Origin: Mycobacterium vicinigordonae
Lineage (GTDB): Bacteria; Actinomycetota; Actinomycetes; Mycobacteriales; Mycobacteriaceae
Length of the DNA stretch: 64,000 nucleotides
Assembly: GCF_013466425.1 (NCBI RefSeq)
Contig: NZ_CP059165.1
Location: forward strand, 5,952,001-6,016,000
Direction of reading: 5' to 3'
Under the pieces are notes generated by a model. It did no database searches. It was given only the letters and a program-made list of their open reading frames with translations, and was not told where the DNA came from. Made by a program: the position numbers and the translations under genes. This document shows, piece by piece, positions 8,517-20,795 of the stretch. Each line of letters starts with the position of its first letter. Within the stretch, counting starts at the first letter, position 1.

Positions 8517-10571
8517 TCACGCGCTGATCACCGACACTGTGCCGCTGTTGAAGTTGGTGACGTAGACGGCTCCGGTGACCGGGTCGACGGCGACCCCGTA
8601 CGGCGCCGAACCAACCGGGATGGTGGCGGTGACGTTGTTGGTAGTCGGGTTGATCACCGATACCGTGCCGTCGGCGAGGCGGTTGGCGACGAAGACGTAG
8701 TCACTGCCAGGACTGACCGCCACCCCGTACGGGGAATTGCCGACATTGACGGTGCCCGTGACGGTGTTGCTGGTGGGATCGATCACCGATACCGTGCCGC
8801 TCCCGCTGTTGGTGACGTAGACATTGCCTCCGGGGTTGACTGCAACTCCGTAGGGGCCGTCACCGACGCCGATAGGCGACCCGACGACGGTGTTGGTGGC
8901 CGGATTGATCACCGATACCGTGTCACTGCCGTAGTTGGTGACGTACACGTTGCCGCCCGGGTTCACGGCCACCCCGTAGGGGGCGCCGCCGACATGGACT
9001 GAGCCGGTGTAGGTGTTGGTGACGGGATTGATCACCGACACCGAGTCACCGTCGACGTTGCTGACATAGATGTCGCCGCCCGGGTTGACCGCGACGCCAG
9101 AAGGGTAGGCACCGACCCCGATGCCGCCGGTGACAGTGTTAGTGGACGGGTCGATCACCGCGACCGAGTTGCTGTTGGAGTTGGCGACGTACAAATTGCC
9201 GCCCGGGTTGACCGCGATACCCGTGGGGTTTGCGACCGCGATGTTGTCGATGACGGTGTTGGTCTTCGGATCGATCACCGACACCGTTGCGCCATTGGGG
9301 TTGGTGACGTAGACGTAGCCGCCCGGGTTGACCGCCACCCCGTATGGAGAGTTGAGGCCGGAAATGGTGGTTACCGTGCCACCGGACCCGCCGGTCCCGC
9401 CGATGCCACCGGCCCCGCCGGCCTGGCCGACGGCGGCGCTGCCGGTGCCGCCAGCGGCGCCGGGAGCGTTGAAGCCGGCAGTTGCGGCGCCACCTTGCCC
9501 GCCGGTGCCTCCGGCGCCGCCGGCGCCGCCAATACCGGCCACACCCGCGTGCCCCGTGATTCCCAGAAAGCCCGACCCGAAGAGCCCGGCTGAGCCACCG
9601 GCGCCACCGAGACCGGCAGCGCCGCCGGAGCCCCCGATTCCTCCGGTACCGCCCGCCACGCCCCAGGTCGCACTGGCGGAGCCAGTTGCACCGACGCCCC
9701 CCAACCCGCCGTCTCCGCCTGCCCCGCCGGAACCGCCAACACCGAAGAGCCCCCAACTGGCTCCGCCGACACCACCGCGCCCACCGGCACCGCCGGTGAA
9801 ACCGCCCTCACCGGTGAGGGCGGGCGCCAAACTCGCGCCACCATCGCCGCCGGCTCCGCCAGCGCCACCGGGTCCCCAGAACACCGCCCGCCCAACGCCG
9901 CCGGCTCCGCCAGCCCCGCCCGCACCGCCGACACCGGCCGCGCTGTCCGCACCGATCCCACCGACACCTCCGGCACCCCCGCGACCAGCCCACCAGCCGC
10001 CGGCTCCGCCAGCCCCGCCGGCTCCCCCGGTACCCCCGTTGACTCCGTCCCCTCCGGCTCCCCCGGCGCCGCCGCGGCCCAGTAGCCCCGCCGATCCGCC
10101 CTTGCCGCCAGCTTGCCCGGCGGCTCCTGAACCACCGGCGCCGCCGTTGCCCAATAGGAAGCCGCCGTCCCCACCGGCCCGGCCGGTGCCGGCCTCCCCG
10201 TTGGCCCCGTCACCGATCAAGGGACGCCCGAACAACACCATCGTTGGCGCGTTGATCACGTCCAATACGGTTTGCAGCGGTGCCACGTTGGCCGCCTCGG
10301 CGCTGGCATACGCCGCCGCGCTTGCTGACATTGAGCTCACGAAGCGTTCATGCGACAACCCCACCTGCGCGCCCAGCCTCTGAAACTCGTGAGCGAAATT
10401 GCTGAAAAAGTTCGAAACCGCCACCGACACCTCGTCGGCAGCCGCCGGCACCAACCCCACCGTGGCCGGCGCGGCTGCCGCTGCTGCCGACCTGACGGCC
10501 GATCCGACGCCGGACAACTTCGCCGACGCCGTCTCCAACGCTTCCGGAGCAGCAATGACATGCGACGACAC
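8517..10571 (-). CDS. PE_PGRS protein with C-terminal seven-repeat YVTN beta-propeller (copy 2)
   Basis: A 684-residue paralogue of the neighbouring PE_PGRS-propeller protein in the same domain order: PE domain ([16 protein letters not shown]...), linker [11 protein letters not shown], Gly-rich PGRS (about 120-400), then seven YVTN repeats at 407-684. Six are of 41-43 residues and one terminal 29-residue repeat, again preceded by a lone strand 'TVTTISG' able to close the ring. The GTG at 10571 has an ideal AGGAGG 5 bases upstream. The repeats differ between copies in loop residues but keep the strand pattern, so the pair looks like a duplication followed by divergence. Export by an ESX system is expected from the PE domain, not shown here. 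Confidence 0.92.
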
Positions 10572-14279: not shown

Positions 14280-14702
14280 CTAGACGAGGATCACGGGGAT
14301 GTCGGTGTTCTCGTCCGTGTGGTAGCTCGCACAGACCCGGTGGTAACCATCGGCGATCTGCAGCGGGACACCTTTCGTGTAATCGCCGCGCACCAGCAGG
14401 ATCGGCGAAAGCGGTTGGCCCTTCCTGATCTTCGAGAGATCCGCGGCGACGTGTGGGTTGTCCTCGCGCAGCAGCCGCAACCCTGCCGCCCGCAGAATGT
14501 CCTTGGCCTTCTTATGCACGATGCCGGCGGCCCGCAGTCGCTCCGCCACGTCGTTGACAGTGTGCATGTCCGCCAGCAGCGCAAGGTAGCTGGCCGCGGC
14601 CGGAAAGTCGTGGTCCTCGGGCTGGTCCAGCCACTTCACACTTGGCATGTCGCCACCATAATTGGGATCGGTAGCCGGCGCAGTGATCTGTACTTCCGCC
14701 AT
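14280..14702 (-). CDS. ParB/sulfiredoxin-like small protein
   Basis: A 140-residue protein starting MAEVQITAPATDPNYGGD. The C-terminal half reads PLSPILLVRGDYTKGVPLQIADGYHRVCAS, where 'ADGYHR' with a preceding strand is characteristic of the ParB/Srx fold, which binds nucleotides. The middle (YLALLADMHTVNDVAERLRAAGIVHKKAKDILRAAG) looks helical. No plasmid-partition context is present. ATG 14702 is chosen; the upstream open frame overlaps the divergent lipoprotein gene. The two divergent starts are 40 bp apart. Confidence 0.75.
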   Translation of the reverse strand: MAEVQITAPATDPNYGGDMPSVKWLDQPEDHDFPAAASYLALLADMHTVNDVAERLRAAGIVHKKAKDILRAAGLRLLREDNPHVAADLSKIRKGQPLSPILLVRGDYTKGVPLQIADGYHRVCASYHTDENTDIPVILV

Positions 14703-14742
14703 GACGACGCCAACGGGGCGGCGCATGACGGAAGGAAGTTCG

Positions 14743-15231
14743 ATGAAACGTGTTATGGCGGCTGCGATTGCCACACTTGGTTGCGCGACCGTGTTGGTGG
14801 GGTGCTCCAGCGGCGGCCACACGGCCAGCCCCGCGTCCAACGGTCCGGCGTCAAGTGTCTCCGCCGGGGGCGGCGCAACCGAGATCAAAGTGGGCGGCAC
14901 CGACCTGGCTGGCGTCAACCCGTCGTCGGTGACCTGTGTTAAGCAGGGCGGGAAGATCAACATCGGCAGCGGATCCACCAACGGTCAGCAACAGGCGTTG
15001 GCAGTGGTGATGACCGACGCGAACCCGCCCACGGTCGACTCGCTGGCCCTGATCGTGGACGGCAATGCGTTGTCGGTGGCCGACAACATGGGCAGCAAGG
15101 TCGGATCGGCCAAGGTCACGGTGGAGGGTAAGACCTACACCATCACGGGCCAGGCACAGGGCGCGGACCTGAAAAACCCGATGGCGGGCATGATCACCAA
15201 GGACTTCAGCATCAAGGTTACGTGTGGCTGA
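14743..15231 (+). CDS. LpqH-family (19 kDa antigen-type) lipoprotein
   Basis: A 162-residue secreted lipoprotein. Signal peptide MKRVMAAAIATLGCATVLVG, lipobox LVGC with the acylated Cys21, then a Ser/Gly/Ala linker. The beta-rich domain ends in 'ITGQAQGADLKNPMAGMITKDFSIKVTCG', matching the end of LpqH ('..NPM......F.I.VTC.'), with a Cys pair (VTCVKQ and VTCG) that can form the conserved disulfide. GAAGGAAG precedes the ATG at 14743. A strong hairpin terminator follows 12 bp after the stop. Confidence 0.87.
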   Translation: MKRVMAAAIATLGCATVLVGCSSGGHTASPASNGPASSVSAGGGATEIKVGGTDLAGVNPSSVTCVKQGGKINIGSGSTNGQQQALAVVMTDANPPTVDSLALIVDGNALSVADNMGSKVGSAKVTVEGKTYTITGQAQGADLKNPMAGMITKDFSIKVTCG

Positions 15232-15243
15232 TGAGGAACGCTT

Positions 15244-15280
15244 CGGCGCGGCGGGCATCCACCGGATGTCCGTCGCGCCG
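15244..15280 (+). terminator. Strong hairpin after the lipoprotein gene
   Basis: A 17-bp stem (15244-15260 pairing with 15264-15280) with a 3-nt loop 'acc'. Two of the 17 pairs are G-U wobbles on the RNA and the rest are Watson-Crick. No U-run follows, as is usual in mycobacteria. Its position rules out ATG 15231 or GTG 15222 as practical starts for the next gene, and separates the lipoprotein from the TPR/CHAT operon. Confidence 0.75.
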
Positions 15281-15296
15281 GACTTATGATGCAGCC

Positions 15297-17018
15297 GTGT
15301 CGATCCGCGACGAGCTCGAGCGAGCACGACACTTGGCGTGCGCCGGCGACGAAAACTCGGCACGCGATCTGCTTCTGTCGCTGATGCCGCGCATCGAGCA
15401 GGAGGATCGCGACGATCTGCTACTCGAAGTGTTCGCCCAGCTCGGTGAAATCTATCTGGTTCGAGGCACGAATGATGGAGTGCGCGAATGTATTCGGCGC
15501 ATTCAAGAACCGCTGGCGATCTACCGCGAGATCCTGGCCGGCACCCGGCCGGATGCGGCCGCCCTGGTGCACATGTCGGATTCCGCGATCGCGCACATGG
15601 TGCTGCGCTATTCCCGACGGGCACGGCTTCTTCAGATCGGCTTGGCCGCCACGCTGGGCGATCACGACAGCGCCGCAGCCACGCTGGCGGAGCTAGACGA
15701 CTCCGATTACAGCGATGTGGATCTCGCCGACGAACACCATCAGCTTCTGTTTCAGGCCCGCACATTGTGCGCAATCGCGCTGTGTGACGACGATTTGCAT
15801 CCGCGATCCGTCCCGCTGTGGGAGCAGGTACTCGACACGTTGCAGGCCGGGCGCGGTGGCTCCGAATACGCCCAGCATCTCTGGGTTTTGGCGGCCACCG
15901 CCTACGGCCGGTTCTGCGTCGAGACCGGGCGACTGGCCGATGCCGAGCCGTGGCTACGCCGTGCCGGTGCCCGAGCGCAGGCCAACGGCTGGGAACTCGA
16001 CAGTGCCCGAGCACAATTGGAGCGCGCCGCGGTCAGCTGGACCCTGGGCGAGCAGGCTGCCACCGAACGGCTGGTGTCGGAAGCCTACCCGGTGATCGCC
16101 CGGTCTGCCCGGGCTCACGAGGTGTCGCGCTGCTGGCTTTACCTGGGCCTGACCCGATTCGCCCACGGTGCGCTGCAGGCCGCCGACGAGTGCTGGGAGC
16201 ACGCCGAGCGGCACTGGCGCGAGCTGGGCAAGCCGCTGCATCTGCATCGCATCCTGTTGCAGCGCAGCTGGATCAGCATTTTCCGGGGCCGCTTCGCAGC
16301 CGCGGTCGAGTTGATCGCACAGGCCCGGGAGTTACTGGACTCCTCGCCGCGCAGCAGCTGGTTGCAATACGCGCTGCTGGACAATCACCTTGGGACGGTG
16401 TGGCGGGCAGATGCACTAGCTGATCTCGGCTTCGACGGATCCGGTAATCCCGGCGAGACACTGCGGGAGACGGCGGTACGCCAGGCCGCCGCGCTGGGGT
16501 TACTCCACGGCGAGACTGGCACCGCTGAGCACCGGCGAGCGATGGCCAAGCTCGAGCGGGCCGCCAACCTCAAGGTTCCCGCGGCGCTGGCCGTCGACTC
16601 GGTCCGCTACTCGATCGCCCACCCGAACGCGCGATCGTCTTGGGCGCAGCGTATTTCAGCGCCGGTGCTGGCCGGTGCGTTCGCCGTCGCGTGGGAGTGG
16701 GAGAATATCGAACTGGTCGCCGAACTGATTGAATATCACAGCGCTCGAGGAACTTTGACCGACCAACCGCACCCTGTTGCGACCGCCGAATGGGAGTCAA
16801 CCGCAGCGGCACCGGCCTTCGCCGACACCGCAGACGAATCCGGCGCGGCGGCAACGGCGTTACCGGACACAGGCCCCCTGACCCGGCTGGGGCCACTGCC
16901 GCCGCTGCAGATGCAACCCGGGGCAGCACCCATCCTGAGCAGCTATCGAGCACTGGCGCAACAGCGATACGGCCGTCAGGTAACGGCCGCCGAACCGGCG
17001 TGGTGCAGCTGGCCATGA
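15297..17018 (+). CDS. TPR-repeat protein, first gene of the CHAT operon
   Basis: A 573-residue, largely helical protein with about ten degenerate TPR-like helix pairs (for example WLRRAGARAQANGWELDSARAQLERAAVSWTLGEQAAT and ADECWEHAERHWRELGKPLHLHRILLQRSWISIFRGRFAAAVELIAQA). There is no signal peptide or membrane segment, so it is cytosolic. The C-terminal ~70 residues are Ala/Pro-rich linker. Its stop overlaps the CHAT gene start by 4 bp (ATGA at 17015-17018). TPR proteins usually sense or present partners to an adjoining CHAT protease; here the two are separate polypeptides. GTG 15297 is chosen because the terminator hairpin lies just upstream; it lacks a strong Shine-Dalgarno, so the start is uncertain. 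Confidence 0.8.
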   Translation: MSIRDELERARHLACAGDENSARDLLLSLMPRIEQEDRDDLLLEVFAQLGEIYLVRGTNDGVRECIRRIQEPLAIYREILAGTRPDAAALVHMSDSAIAHMVLRYSRRARLLQIGLAATLGDHDSAAATLAELDDSDYSDVDLADEHHQLLFQARTLCAIALCDDDLHPRSVPLWEQVLDTLQAGRGGSEYAQHLWVLAATAYGRFCVETGRLADAEPWLRRAGARAQANGWELDSARAQLERAAVSWTLGEQAATERLVSEAYPVIARSARAHEVSRCWLYLGLTRFAHGALQAADECWEHAERHWRELGKPLHLHRILLQRSWISIFRGRFAAAVELIAQARELLDSSPRSSWLQYALLDNHLGTVWRADALADLGFDGSGNPGETLRETAVRQAAALGLLHGETGTAEHRRAMAKLERAANLKVPAALAVDSVRYSIAHPNARSSWAQRISAPVLAGAFAVAWEWENIELVAELIEYHSARGTLTDQPHPVATAEWESTAAAPAFADTADESGAAATALPDTGPLTRLGPLPPLQMQPGAAPILSSYRALAQQRYGRQVTAAEPAWCSWP

Positions 17019-18367
17019 CCGAGACGCTGATCCTGCGCTACGCCGATGTCGGGATCGCCACCTACGCCAGCTTGCGTGTCGTCGGTCAGCCACCCGTCAC
17101 CTGGGTGGTCGAGGAGCCAATTCTGTTGGCGGCCTTGCAGGAAATGACCGATGCGCTGCCAGAGCCCATCGATGCCGAGAGCCGCCGCGACGCGATCGAA
17201 CGTGCGCTGACCCGGGGCCCGTTGGCGACACAGGACGCCGAGCTCACCGTCGCCTACATCCTGGGTGTGCTGTTAATCGGTGCAGTCGGCTGGCACCTGC
17301 TGTCGCAGTGCCTGACCCGATCGGCTGGACAACGACCGACCTTGTTCGTCTCGCCCTGCACCCGGTTGGCCAAAGTGCCGTGGGGGCAGCTCGCCGTCCC
17401 GAACTCCGGTCCCACCGCTGAGGAGCTGGTCCGTGCCCGGCAGGGGGCAATCACCAGCGCCGGCCGGGCGGCCGCCCGGATTCCCTGGCAGCTGGCCGAC
17501 ATCCACGCGCACACAGAGGGCTACCGGTTGATGGAATTAGCCGACATCCTGCTGTCGGTGCCGCAGCACATTGTGCACGCACCGCGTACGCCGCGCGCCT
17601 GGGAGTCGAACCGGGACAACCCACCGCTGCTGGTCCTGGATCCGCGGGTACCGGGGCAGCGGCCGGACTCAGCACTAGGTTCGGTGCTGGGCAGGCCATC
17701 GGACCAGACTCCGCTGGCACGCTATTACGGCGACATGATGCGCCGCCGAGCCGTGCTGCCGCGGGTCGGCACCGCCGTCGAGCTGTTTCGCCGGCAAGAC
17801 GCCGACCGCCGTTGGTTGACGGAAATGCTTGCGCAGCAACCGAGCCGCATCCTGTATGCCGGCCACGCCAGCTCCGCCGACAGCGAGGTGGGGGGCGCCG
17901 ATCGGGCCGCGCTGCACTTGGCGTGTTCAGCGGCGATGCCCGGGGACGCCGCGTCGATCGGTGACCACCGGCCCTTGACGGCCTCGGACCTGATGGCTGC
18001 ACGAATGCCGATACCACCGCGGGTGGCGCTGTTGGCCTGCGCATCCGGTGGCGACTATCAGTTCGACGAGGCGACGGGACTGGTGGCCGCGATGATTCTC
18101 GGTGGGGCGCAATTGGTGACGGCCACGCTATGGTCGCTGCCCACCGCCGCGGCCTTTCGGCAATTCGGCCCTGCTGCAGAGGATTCCGTTGATCCACTGG
18201 CGGAGTCGGTGACAGCCGTGGACAGCGCGCACCAACAGGACGAGGCCGGGCGCGCCGTGAACCGATGGCAACGTGCCCAAATGCGGCGCTGGCGGGACGG
18301 CGATGTCACAGCCAGTCCGCTGTTCTGGGGTGCGTTGGTGACGTTCGCCGTGGATGGCGCGCGGTGA
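17015..18367 (+). CDS. CHAT-domain (caspase-like) protein
   Basis: A 450-residue protein whose C-terminal two thirds form a CHAT domain, a clan CD cysteine-peptidase fold related to caspases and separase. The catalytic dyad is intact: His284 in ILYAGHASS and Cys342 in ALLACASGG. The downstream 'EATGLVAAMILGGAQLVTATLWSLP' matches the conserved CHAT end. An upstream 'RLAKVPWGQLAVP' corresponds to the conserved 'P...LPW..L..' lead-in. The N-terminal ~100 residues are mixed alpha/beta and not recognised. It overlaps the TPR gene by ATGA and the next gene by GTGA. It is expected to be a regulated protease whose target and trigger are unknown. Confidence 0.88.
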   Translation: MTETLILRYADVGIATYASLRVVGQPPVTWVVEEPILLAALQEMTDALPEPIDAESRRDAIERALTRGPLATQDAELTVAYILGVLLIGAVGWHLLSQCLTRSAGQRPTLFVSPCTRLAKVPWGQLAVPNSGPTAEELVRARQGAITSAGRAAARIPWQLADIHAHTEGYRLMELADILLSVPQHIVHAPRTPRAWESNRDNPPLLVLDPRVPGQRPDSALGSVLGRPSDQTPLARYYGDMMRRRAVLPRVGTAVELFRRQDADRRWLTEMLAQQPSRILYAGHASSADSEVGGADRAALHLACSAAMPGDAASIGDHRPLTASDLMAARMPIPPRVALLACASGGDYQFDEATGLVAAMILGGAQLVTATLWSLPTAAAFRQFGPAAEDSVDPLAESVTAVDSAHQQDEAGRAVNRWQRAQMRRWRDGDVTASPLFWGALVTFAVDGAR

Positions 18368-19704
18368 CTCAATATCCTGTGTTCATGAGCGCCGATCCTC
18401 AGCTACCGGCCGCCGCCGGTGCGGGGCACCCCCGTCGCGCGGTGATCGAGCAGGCATGGCGCGCGATCGGTCCCGGAGTCGAGGTGCTGAGCAGCGACGA
18501 CGGTGGCCCGCTGACCCGGACCGTCAAACGCATCATCGACCCATTGGTGCTGCGCCTGCGCTCGAACCCGCAGTATTCGGCTCCCGTCTGTGCGGCCAGC
18601 ACGGCAGCTGCCATGTCCGAGTTGATCGTCGGTAACGCCGACAACTTGCGCTGTGCCGCAGCCTGGTTCGAGCTGCTCAAGGTCGAGCGCCGCCGGTTGC
18701 GGATCCGCAGCGGCAACGCTCAAGAGTTGTATTTTCCGGTTTGTTTCGAGCTCGCGGTCACCAAAGGCCCGCCCACGCCGCATGATCACCAGTCCGCCGC
18801 CGAGGTGTTGAGGAAGATTCACCAAGACCGCGACCGCACCGCGGTCGAGGTGCTCAACGACTACATCGCCGACACCGAAGTGGAGGCCGGGCTGGCGGTG
18901 CAGCTGGAACGCACCTGGCGGGATGTGCGGGCCGACGGCGTAACGCTCGAAGCGTTCCTCGCCGAGCTGAGCACCGTGCTGGGACCGGCGCGCGGACACA
19001 ACGCGGTCACCGCACGCCAGCGGGTCTGGTCGGCGATGATCGTCGACACCGCCCCCTACAACCTGGGTGCGCTGGCCAGGGAGCGGGACGCCGCGCTGCC
19101 CTGGTCAATAGTCCAATTGGGCCTGAGTTCGGTTGCACCGCAACGTGCCCCGAAGATCACGGGGGTCTCTGATGGCGATCGGCCGCTGGACCGGTCGGTG
19201 CTGGACCGGGTGCGGGCCACGCTGCGACGCGCCTTGAACCGCGACTCCCTGCCCGACATCCCGCTGCTGTGCGCCGAGGAGGTCGACCGAGCTTGTGCGC
19301 CATGGGGTTTGCTCGGCGAGGACAAGCAGGCCACACTGGTGGCCGGCATCGAGGTGGCCGTCGACCTTGCGCCCCTGGACCGTTCGCTCACCAGCCGCTA
19401 CGCGCTGGCCGCCCAGATCCAGGCGCGGCTGCGCAAGGAGGCCTACGTGCTGCACGCACGGCGATACCTCGCCGACGGTGAACCGATCCATCCACGTCAA
19501 CGACAGGTTGTCGATGAATTGGCTGCATTCGCACAGCCCTACCTGAACCGATTATGGGCGCGTCTGCATGGCCGGGACGTCTGGCAGGAGCCCTGCGACG
19601 ATCTCGACGACGTCCGTGCGCTGCTGGACGGAGTGGCCCGATCGGTGAGCCTGGACCATCGGCAGCGCATCAAGTCGATGCTGGAATTGCAGGCGGCCGG
19701 ATGA
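18364..19704 (+). CDS. Unrecognised protein, third gene of the TPR/CHAT operon
   Basis: 446 residues, soluble, predominantly helical, rich in Arg and Asp, with no motif I can name. Segments such as CAAWFELLKVERRRLRIRSGNAQELYFPVCFE and YALAAQIQARLRKEAYVLHARRYLADG look like structured helices. There is no signal peptide. GTG 18364 is taken because it overlaps the CHAT stop (GTGA 18364-18367); ATG 18385 (MSADPQLPA) is the alternative. Its stop overlaps the fourth gene (ATGA 19701-19704). The coupling implies a stoichiometric partner of the CHAT protein: a substrate, inhibitor or effector. Confidence 0.8.
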   Translation: MTQYPVFMSADPQLPAAAGAGHPRRAVIEQAWRAIGPGVEVLSSDDGGPLTRTVKRIIDPLVLRLRSNPQYSAPVCAASTAAAMSELIVGNADNLRCAAAWFELLKVERRRLRIRSGNAQELYFPVCFELAVTKGPPTPHDHQSAAEVLRKIHQDRDRTAVEVLNDYIADTEVEAGLAVQLERTWRDVRADGVTLEAFLAELSTVLGPARGHNAVTARQRVWSAMIVDTAPYNLGALARERDAALPWSIVQLGLSSVAPQRAPKITGVSDGDRPLDRSVLDRVRATLRRALNRDSLPDIPLLCAEEVDRACAPWGLLGEDKQATLVAGIEVAVDLAPLDRSLTSRYALAAQIQARLRKEAYVLHARRYLADGEPIHPRQRQVVDELAAFAQPYLNRLWARLHGRDVWQEPCDDLDDVRALLDGVARSVSLDHRQRIKSMLELQAAG

Positions 19705-20795
19705 GACTGGTCAATGACCCCGAGCAGCCCGCGCCCCTGATCGCAGGATTGGAAGTCGCTGGCGCCGCGTTGTTTTGGGTGGTGACAGACCCGCCAGATG
19801 CCGCGGACGCCGTCCAGGTTTCGCTCACCGACCCAGCGCGGGCGGACTGGCTGTGGCGCGTCGTGGGCGCCGACGGGCATCTCGCGATCCTGTCGGCCGC
19901 CGCTGGGACCACGGACCTGCCCGACGTTGCCATCGTGCCGGGATCGTTGGCGGCGCTACGCAGGCTGGCGATCGGCCACTGGCTGCGGCGCTGGTGGCCA
20001 GCCAGCCGGCGCGACGGCATCCCAGGTCTCGATGCGGCGCTGCTCGACGTCGAGGTGGCGCTGCTGACCGCCGCAGCGCAGGCCTTTTTCTCCGACGACA
20101 CCCTGGATTCGGACGCGGCCGCGTTGCTGGCACCGCACGCGGCGGCATTGACCGCCCACCTGGGTACCAGCGACCGCCGGGTACGCGAGTTGGTACGGGC
20201 GAGCGCCGAGTTGGCCGACGAGATTGGTGTGGACGGCAGCGGCTGGCCGGAACTGTCGGCAGCGCTGGATAATTCGGCCAATGCACCGGCCGTGCCGTCA
20301 GGACGCCAGGACGACTACGCGCTGGCCGCGGGCTCCGATGCCGCTCCGGGGACCGCGGCGATCGGTCGGGGTGTCGCGTCGATCAACTGGGCTGCGGTGC
20401 CGCCGGGAATCTTCGACGCGGCCGAGGACACCGTCGAGTGGCGCGTAGCGGTGTCCGGCCCGACAGTGATCGCCGTGGTGCGCGCCGCCGTCATCGGTCC
20501 GCATCCGGCCACCGATATCGCGGTGCGGGTGCAGTCCGGCGACGTCGCGGGCACCGCTGCATTGGACGCTCGGGGCGGGGCCGTGGTCGCGCTCGTCGAC
20601 GCGCAAGGGCGTGCATTGCTGGAGTCGGACGCTTGGAATCACGACTGGCCGCCGACGTCCGTCGTGGTCGGCGCCGGTGTCAGCGAGGCTCGGGAGATCC
20701 GGGACCAAATTCGCCAGTGGGTTCGGACACGGTTGGACCAACCACCGCAGGATGCGTTCCTGGCCGAGATTCTGGCGGCCGAATCCACTTACTGA
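19701..20795 (+). CDS. Unrecognised protein, fourth gene of the TPR/CHAT operon
   Basis: 364 residues, soluble. The N-terminal half has mixed strands and helices (LIAGLEVAGAALFWVVTDP; LDAALLDVEVALLTAAAQAFFSDD). The C-terminal half (about 245-340) looks beta-rich (VEWRVAVSGPTVIAVVRAAVIG...IAVRVQSGDVAGTAALDARGGAVVALVDAQGRALLES), possibly an Ig-like sandwich. There are no catalytic motifs, and only the operon context hints at its job. It ends 28 bp before the next reductase-like gene, which may be read-through from the same transcript. Confidence 0.8.
   Translation: MRLVNDPEQPAPLIAGLEVAGAALFWVVTDPPDAADAVQVSLTDPARADWLWRVVGADGHLAILSAAAGTTDLPDVAIVPGSLAALRRLAIGHWLRRWWPASRRDGIPGLDAALLDVEVALLTAAAQAFFSDDTLDSDAAALLAPHAAALTAHLGTSDRRVRELVRASAELADEIGVDGSGWPELSAALDNSANAPAVPSGRQDDYALAAGSDAAPGTAAIGRGVASINWAAVPPGIFDAAEDTVEWRVAVSGPTVIAVVRAAVIGPHPATDIAVRVQSGDVAGTAALDARGGAVVALVDAQGRALLESDAWNHDWPPTSVVVGAGVSEAREIRDQIRQWVRTRLDQPPQDAFLAEILAAESTY

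Follow-up and report, generated by a model that had tools for sequence, protein, structure and literature searches.

A Chromosomal TPR-CHAT Protease Module of Mycobacteria and Other Actinomycetes With a Candidate Substrate Carrying a Conserved DYALAAG Linker Island

Introduction

To our knowledge, substrates have been identified for few CHAT proteases, and the locus described here raises the question which protein such an enzyme would cut in mycobacteria. It lies within a stretch of 64,000 nucleotides (in the following referred to as the window), which comprises bases 5,952,001–6,016,000 of the single-contig 6.27 Mb genome of Mycobacterium vicinigordonae (assembly GCF_013466425.1, contig NZ_CP059165.1); coordinates below are window positions. 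An initial annotation of this sequence had described four adjacent genes as one operon that encodes a tetratricopeptide repeat (TPR) protein, a CHAT protease, and two partners that could not be classified. Among the papers listed by a literature search, judged by title and beginning of abstract and with subscription journals thinly covered, none dealt with this four-gene TPR/CHAT module. It is nearly certain that the four genes form a genuine unit. We propose that they may constitute a chromosomal actinobacterial module of regulated proteolysis, in which the gene 4 protein would be a dedicated substrate that is cut at a linker. We regard this proposal as tentative and its chance as a little under even. 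The features of the module are the following:

15297..17018, plus strand: gene 1, TPR protein of 573 amino acids, an open reading frame (ORF) with a homologue in 76/80 loci
17015..18367, plus strand: gene 2, CHAT caspase-like protease of 450 amino acids
17864..17866, plus strand: codon of the presumed catalytic His284, within a GHA motif
18038..18040, plus strand: codon of the presumed catalytic Cys342, within LLACASG
18385..19704, plus strand: gene 3, unnamed family, predicted to be all-helical, with the likely start ATG at 18385 (earlier called from GTG at 18364)
19701..20795, plus strand: gene 4, two-domain protein of 364 amino acids, the proposed substrate
20313..20333, plus strand: DYALAAG island, residues 205–211 of gene 4, in a linker, found by alignment entropy and an island scan

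The Four Genes Are Inherited Together

As relatives we used the best 80 of the 93 loci that matched gene 3, which belong to Mycobacterium, Mycolicibacterium, and one Mycobacteriaceae bacterium. Loci covered by less than 85% were omitted from the alignments (4/80 for gene 4, 1/78 for CHAT, 2/76 for TPR, and 2/70 for a lipoprotein gene next to the module, see below). The lipoprotein gene, TPR, CHAT, and genes 3 and 4 are all present in 70 of the 80 loci; 6 lack the lipoprotein gene only, 2 lack it together with TPR, and 2 have genes 3 and 4 alone. Nine of these ten incomplete loci end at a contig edge, the tenth being locus L059. The 80 loci were picked via their gene 3 match, and whole-genome counts are the fairer test of co-occurrence. 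Among 148 genomes (G000–G147), in which CHAT was sought with the profile of this module, gene 3 and CHAT occurred together in 95, gene 3 alone in 3, CHAT alone in none, and neither of them in 50 (Fisher p 2.6e-36, kinship ignored). Two of the three genomes with gene 3 only (G104 and G129) match over just 51 and 211 of 443 positions, and the third is an 84%-complete metagenome-assembled genome (MAG). The median ratio of non-synonymous to synonymous substitution rates (dN/dS; 17 close pairs per gene) amounted to 0.135 for TPR, 0.136 for CHAT, 0.111 for gene 3, and 0.22 for gene 4. All four genes are real and under purifying selection.

Gene 3 was found in 196/297 genomes of the genus, mostly as a single match. 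In wider samples it occurred in 50/251 genomes of the family, 34/394 of the class, and 6/198 of the phylum, whereby all six of the latter fall within the class; the window's own genome is included in each of these counts. Records of gene 3 homologues exist for Rhodococcus as well. A match to gene 3 or gene 4 served to select 27 regions from further genera and families. Three of them gave weak matches to both genes (L123), one weak gene 4 match (L131), or none (L160). The remaining 24 regions, of which L113 and L128 are truncated by the end of their contig, all carry genes 3 and 4, together with CHAT in 22 and the TPR profile in 19 cases. Eleven loci from the window's family (L114–L121, L124–L126) have the order lipoprotein gene (reverse), gene 3, gene 4, TPR, CHAT; L112 has the mycobacterial order, and L122 reads CHAT, lipoprotein gene, gene 3, gene 4. 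Loci from other families show gene 3, gene 4, TPR, CHAT. The order of these four genes is thus the same in Nocardia-type and Streptomyces-type loci; a protein of one region (L127) is 97% identical to a Streptomyces protein. A search for an extra conserved effector gene, carried out as an all-against-all comparison of the ORFs from the distant loci, gave back the families already known, besides shadow ORFs and sets of limited size that three to five groups have in common; no clear candidate was obtained, the comparison being noisy and not decisive.

Genes 3 and 4 gave no match in Pfam and NCBIfam searched up to E 1, in PADLOC, or in PHROGs, in line with their earlier description as unclassifiable, and gene 3 relatives from other genera had Pfam and NCBIfam matches far under the cut-off only. 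Among the 120 of 618 gene 3 matches listed, the named records read hypothetical or uncharacterized protein, with the exception of one UniRef name; this database name, lantibiotic dehydratase, was not supported by Pfam or NCBIfam. A neighbourhood comparison had been set in advance as the point at which the idea of a protease with dedicated partners could fail: genes 3 and 4 do occur with CHAT elsewhere, and no enzyme family passed its cut-off, either for genes 3 and 4 themselves or for the relatives tested.

The TPR and CHAT Proteins Are Fused in Other Genera

The CHAT protein of the window passes the Pfam cut-off for PF12770 (E 1.9e-11) and is the sole match to this family at E 0.001 in the whole genome. 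His284 and Cys342, which had been reported as intact, are H and C in 78/78 aligned mycobacterial CHAT sequences (window included). In the distant CHAT sequences, GH is conserved in 22/22 and C-x-S-G likewise in 22/22 (20 by regular expression, 2 by eye). The TPR protein of the window has Pfam matches below the cut-off only (TPR_MalT, E 8e-5), but its homologue from L114 matches TPR_12 at 2.1e-19, above the cut-off. In four loci of other genera (L154–L157) TPR and CHAT are located within one ORF, with TPR first. The TPR part lies above a Pfam cut-off in L155–L157 and just under it in L154, and the CHAT part is matched in 4/4 by the mycobacterial CHAT profile built here. PDB sequence searches with the CHAT, gene 3, and gene 4 profiles and with the fused L157 protein yielded no convincing match; the latter retrieved designed proteins only (E 0.64 and 2.2). 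As a separate observation, the last ~40 residues of the TPR protein (window 16880–17015) are strongly conserved, with a final proline in 72/75 sequences, mostly as STWP.

Gene 4 Contains a Near-Invariant DYALAAG Island in a Predicted Linker

A structure check had been suggested for both unnamed proteins. AlphaFold2 (AF2) gave a model of gene 4 with a predicted local distance difference test (pLDDT) of 83.8 and a predicted template modelling score of 0.81, whereas the gene 3 model is poor. In the gene 4 model, a small beta part at the N-terminus is followed by helices that extend to about residue 190, and the C-terminal portion forms a beta domain; structural neighbours are weak, and this last domain is weakly Ig-like. 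Residues 194–217 lie below pLDDT 50, and block 201–210 is the lowest of the model (pLDDT 35); this linker is probably flexible. Within it, in 77 mycobacterial sequences, the DYALAAG residues show a mean entropy of 0.17 bits vs. 2.1 bits for residues 195–204 and 2.4 bits for residues 212–220. The exact heptapeptide is present in 64/77 sequences, followed by DYALVAG (5), DYALAAA (3), DFALVAG (2), and NYSLAAG, DYSLAAG, and HYALAAG (1 each). A scan of five protein families for invariant islands between variable flanks returned DYALAAG as the only hit with the criteria applied. ALAAG also occurs in 23/24 distant gene 4 proteins, the corresponding region being judged by eye. The last residue of gene 4 is Tyr in 77/77 mycobacterial sequences and Tyr or Phe in 19/23 complete distant proteins.

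The island resembles the peptide tag that is encoded by the transfer-messenger RNA (tmRNA). According to ARAGORN, the tag of this genome is ADSHQRDYALAA, which ends with RDYALAA, and tags end with ALAA in 25/25 genomes tested. The gene 4 linker contains an internal copy of this tag ending, followed by Gly. Back-translated DYALAAG (Leu as CTN only) occurs once in the 6.27 Mb, namely at gene 4.

Proposed Mechanism

We propose that the TPR protein and the CHAT protease work as one sensor-protease, as they are fused in other genera, whereby the TPR part might keep the protease inactive until a signal or a partner binds. The conserved C-terminal tail of gene 4 would dock on the protease, which would then cut the gene 4 linker in or next to DYALAAG, most simply at ALAA|G; the chances for a cut at this bond by TPR-CHAT appear about evenly balanced. 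The cut would part the helical N-terminal domain from the Ig-like C-terminal domain. Gene 3 might be an obligate, probably all-helical partner, for instance an adaptor, or an effector that is freed by the cut. With less weight, it may be suggested that the N-terminal fragment, whose new end ...DYALAA would look like an ssrA tag, is cleared by ClpXP. ClpX recognition of the ssrA tag requires a free C-terminus, and uncut gene 4 would represent a silent tag, which becomes a live one by a cut after AA. The exposure of such a degron, and with it a caspase-fold enzyme and ClpXP acting in series and conserved across actinomycetes, is in our view rather unlikely.

There are partial precedents for these steps. 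ClpX recognises the Escherichia coli tag AANDENYALAA (PMC9753991), the LexA cut site conceals a ClpXP degron (PMC5742171), and ClpXP degraded fragments of seven of eight RsgI factors, most of them XAA-ended (PMC12203970). In LexA and RsgI the sequence at or next to the cut thus becomes a C-terminal degron, as suggested for gene 4, but there the cut is made by self-cleavage or by RseP, whereas a CHAT protease is proposed here. A similar arrangement is known from Craspase (Csx29/Csx30) of type III-E CRISPR systems, where TPR likewise precedes a CHAT-type domain that has retained His and Cys (as in the single polypeptides L154–L157) and where a multi-domain partner is encoded by a gene of its own. 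In one orthologue, the cut made in Csx30 by the TPR-CHAT protease lies at AIAA|SSEK, after Ala-Ala and before a small residue, and the Csx30 C-terminus is the main recognised part (PMC11106740), which the proposed docking role of the gene 4 tail would parallel. The locus differs from Craspase in that TPR and CHAT are separate genes in the window, genes 3 and 4 are unnamed families, and neither gRAMP/Cas7-11 nor a CRISPR array nor an RpoE-like gene was found among the neighbours scanned here.

Gene 3 Probably Has Its Own Promoter and Is Separated From CHAT in Most Relatives

The initial annotation had joined the genes by three 4-bp overlaps, all of which are indeed present in the window (ATGA 17015–17018, GTGA 18364–18367, ATGA 19701–19704), but the middle one probably does not involve a real start. 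The gene 3 start could be located in 70/80 relatives, where the gene begins with [AG]TG AG, and in 69/70 of these a TA[TC]nnT hexamer lies just upstream. The window retains both elements, the hexamer being:

18373..18378, plus strand: -10-like hexamer TATCCT, candidate leaderless gene 3 promoter, six bases before ATG 18385

It looks like gene 3 has its own leaderless promoter and starts at ATG 18385, and the GTG at 18364 is probably not its real start. Leaderless promoters are a common arrangement in mycobacteria.

In 74/78 relatives that have both genes, CHAT and gene 3 are separated by a gap of at least 300 bp. Within this gap, a loose motif search detected an antisense frame, here called X, in 74/78 relatives, the copy in L078 being a mere scrap of 19 residues; X is missing from the window and from four of the 78 relatives. 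It encodes up to about 230 amino acids (e.g., L065:7287–7946, minus strand), is shorter in slow growers, and has a hydrophobic N-terminus in several species (by eye). Two X proteins searched against Pfam gave no match. A C-terminal extension of CHAT into the gap was also considered and discarded; the CHAT stop was unchanged in nine loci, and the longer gaps are accounted for by the antisense frame. The tight four-gene chain is probably a derived state of the window species that followed the loss of X, and two transcription units, TPR-CHAT and gene 3-gene 4, would be packed together in the window. Of the claim that the genes act as one unit, the joint inheritance stands, but a single tight transcript is not the general rule.

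Lipoprotein Gene, 19-bp Element, and Further Neighbours

Upstream of the module, the following features were identified:

15285..15290, plus strand: -10-like hexamer TATGAT, six bases ahead of the start of the TPR gene (window sequence alone)
about 15242..15282, plus strand: stable hairpin without a T-run, in the gap that separates the lipoprotein and TPR genes
14737..15231, plus strand: LpqH-like lipoprotein gene of the 19 kDa family (PF05481, E 7.1e-30), adjacent to the module in 70/80 loci
14658..14676, minus strand: copy of the 19-bp element GGCTACCGAWCCCAACTTY with 2 mismatches, preceding a small gene of divergent orientation

The hairpin had been taken for a strong terminator. It is very stable, the 72-base stretch folding at z -6.0, but it lacks the T-run and is not listed by the terminator scan. 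In 76/80 relatives the 19-bp element GGCTACCGAWCCCAACTTY is present no more than 130 bp ahead of gene 3 (at most 3 mismatches), whereas the window has no copy at this place. With at most 2 mismatches it occurs in 45/60 genomes with 1–9 sites each, while the reversed pattern gave 2 matches in all 60. By eye, several of 20 other sites selected for inspection precede unrelated genes, among them ammonium-transporter-like and Ser/Thr-kinase-like genes, and one (L146) is located at the lipoprotein gene of the module. We therefore abandoned the idea of a dedicated module operator in favour of a wider mycobacterial element, which is possibly the site of an unknown regulator.

Several observations concern the surroundings. 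The small gene divergent to the lipoprotein gene (14283–14648, minus strand) encodes a ParB/sulfiredoxin-like protein (by eye) with no Pfam match, and a TATGGT hexamer lies six bases before its ATG. Near the lipoprotein gene, related proteins of winged-helix DNA-binding type (by eye) were seen at L046:1794–2960, L070:2023–3204, and L116:3024–4250 (all minus strand), in some of the fast-growing species and in one further genus. On the L059 contig a Ser/Thr-kinase-like gene (L059:155–2098, minus strand) lies beside genes 3 and 4, where X and CHAT would be. Further neighbours in the window are genes for an aspartate aminotransferase, an enoyl-CoA hydratase, a dehydrogenase-like protein, and a cutinase, whereby the aspartate aminotransferase flank is common to 40/80 loci. 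GC-rich, PE_PGRS-like repeats are located at 9000–10157 (repeat scan, by look).

Alternative Explanations

That the genes are chance neighbours with no joint function appears next to impossible. It could appeal to the fact that the tight overlaps are those of the window itself and that one of them is probably unused, but the co-inheritance (95/3/0/50), the rearranged yet adjacent order in distant genera, and the TPR-CHAT fusion speak against it. Another possibility is an anti-phage or conflict system, in which CHAT would be activated by infection and gene 3 or gene 4 would be the toxic effector. Among proposed conflict systems, proteases of the caspase superfamily and TPRs are found repeatedly (PMC7159879), including the multi-gene EACC1-caspase, VMAP, and iSTAND systems (Kaur et al., 2020), and gene 4 evolves fastest of the four genes. 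The search results do not favour this reading, nor the link to gRAMP, CRISPR, or known defence that the initial annotation had drawn: PADLOC gave no match for the four module proteins or nine neighbours, PHROGs no phage-family match for the four proteins, and no CRISPR-like array was detected in window 9–27 kb. MoxR, vWA, VMAP, and iSTAND were not among the Pfam matches of 13 locus proteins, and no Cas-like or RpoE-like feature was seen among the neighbours scanned. The nine neighbours also contain no gRAMP/Cas7-11 (PADLOC), in a search aimed at the locus and not at the rest of the genome. In our judgement, a conserved chromosomal site (aminotransferase flank in 40/80 loci, gene 3 in 196/297 genomes) suits physiology better, and we consider a conflict system unlikely. 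The module might also answer to the LpqH-like lipoprotein or to X and tune the envelope or cell division. In favour of this, the lipoprotein gene adjoins the module in 70/80 loci and, in the 11 rearranged loci from the window's family, is transcribed divergently from gene 3, and X has the hydrophobic N-terminus mentioned above. Moreover, the putative CHAT/TPR protease HetF of cyanobacteria is described as a divisome component that acts in differentiation and division rather than immunity, but it differs in having a transmembrane domain and the CHAT part first (PMC8406250). On the other side, no lipoprotein match was obtained in ten loci of other families (L127–L130, L154–L159), and X is missing in the window and in four of 78 relatives. 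Lipoproteins are exported, whereas the four module proteins look, as we presume, cytoplasmic. Such an envelope or growth control would be a rather improbable explanation.

The most serious competitor, which is compatible with both a conflict system and envelope control and somewhat less than evenly probable, is that DYALAAG is a docking motif or a structural strand and that CHAT instead cuts gene 3 or some unlinked protein. The residues are near-invariant on both sides of the proposed bond, and the Craspase cut sites vary across orthologues and tolerate substitutions. By contrast, a cut site is favoured by the G that almost invariably follows AA, in a linker of low confidence and variable length, and by the AIAA|S precedent. 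The proposal of gene 4 as a substrate, which derives from sequence comparison and a model, has to be held against a number of observations. DYALAAG may serve for docking, or it may form a strand that was overlooked by AF2, for which the alignment comprised 26 mycobacterial rows only. ALVAG replaces the motif in 7/77 and ALAAA in 3/77 mycobacterial gene 4 sequences. The L113 protein reads RYAAVAG, although the tag of its genome is ...RDFALAA, and the weakly matching L123 and L131 are also without ALAAG. In genomes from other families, the aromatic position of the motif agrees with the respective tmRNA tag in just 2/10 cases, and within the window's family the choice of D or E agrees in 1/4 genomes having E tags, such that only ALAA is common throughout. 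Gene 3, too, contains YALAA (residues 346–350, poorly conserved), and since [YF]ALAA occurs in 37/81 gene 3 sequences, short matches of this type arise by chance. It is because of the loose tag match outside the family and the YALAA of gene 3 that we rate the degron so low and the cut near even. An RsgI2 fragment with an FAA end withstood ClpXP (PMC12203970), and Craspase orthologues cut non-conserved sites, with single substitutions at eight residues around AIAA|SSEK leaving the cutting unchanged (PMC11106740). A conserved motif is thus not demanded by the Craspase precedent.

The remaining points on this side concern the other proteins and the counts. The Pfam CHAT model falls short of E 0.001 in all four fused proteins, whose assignment to CHAT relies on the match to the profile built here and on the His and Cys residues that they retain. 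The gene 3 model has a pLDDT of 54.6, and because of this the role of gene 3 is a guess. Interrupted copies were counted as both genes present: G031 has gene 3 in two overlapping pieces, and G134 has both genes in pieces. L059, an incomplete MAG contig, carries genes 3 and 4 with no CHAT within 2.1 kb upstream. Of the suggestion that genes 3 and 4 are the natural substrates or effectors, it holds that they are partners, and gene 4 has become a concrete candidate substrate as judged from its sequence, but for gene 3 no more than the guess can be offered.

Significance

Together, the data describe a chromosomal CHAT protease in mycobacteria, Nocardia, and Streptomyces that comes with two unnamed protein families and with one seven-residue site at which to seek the cut. 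If the degron reading is true, it would link caspase-like signalling to tmRNA/ClpXP tagging via an easily tested sequence. It would also assign a function to genes that are so far recorded as hypothetical, of which gene 3 is found in 196/297 sampled genomes of the genus.

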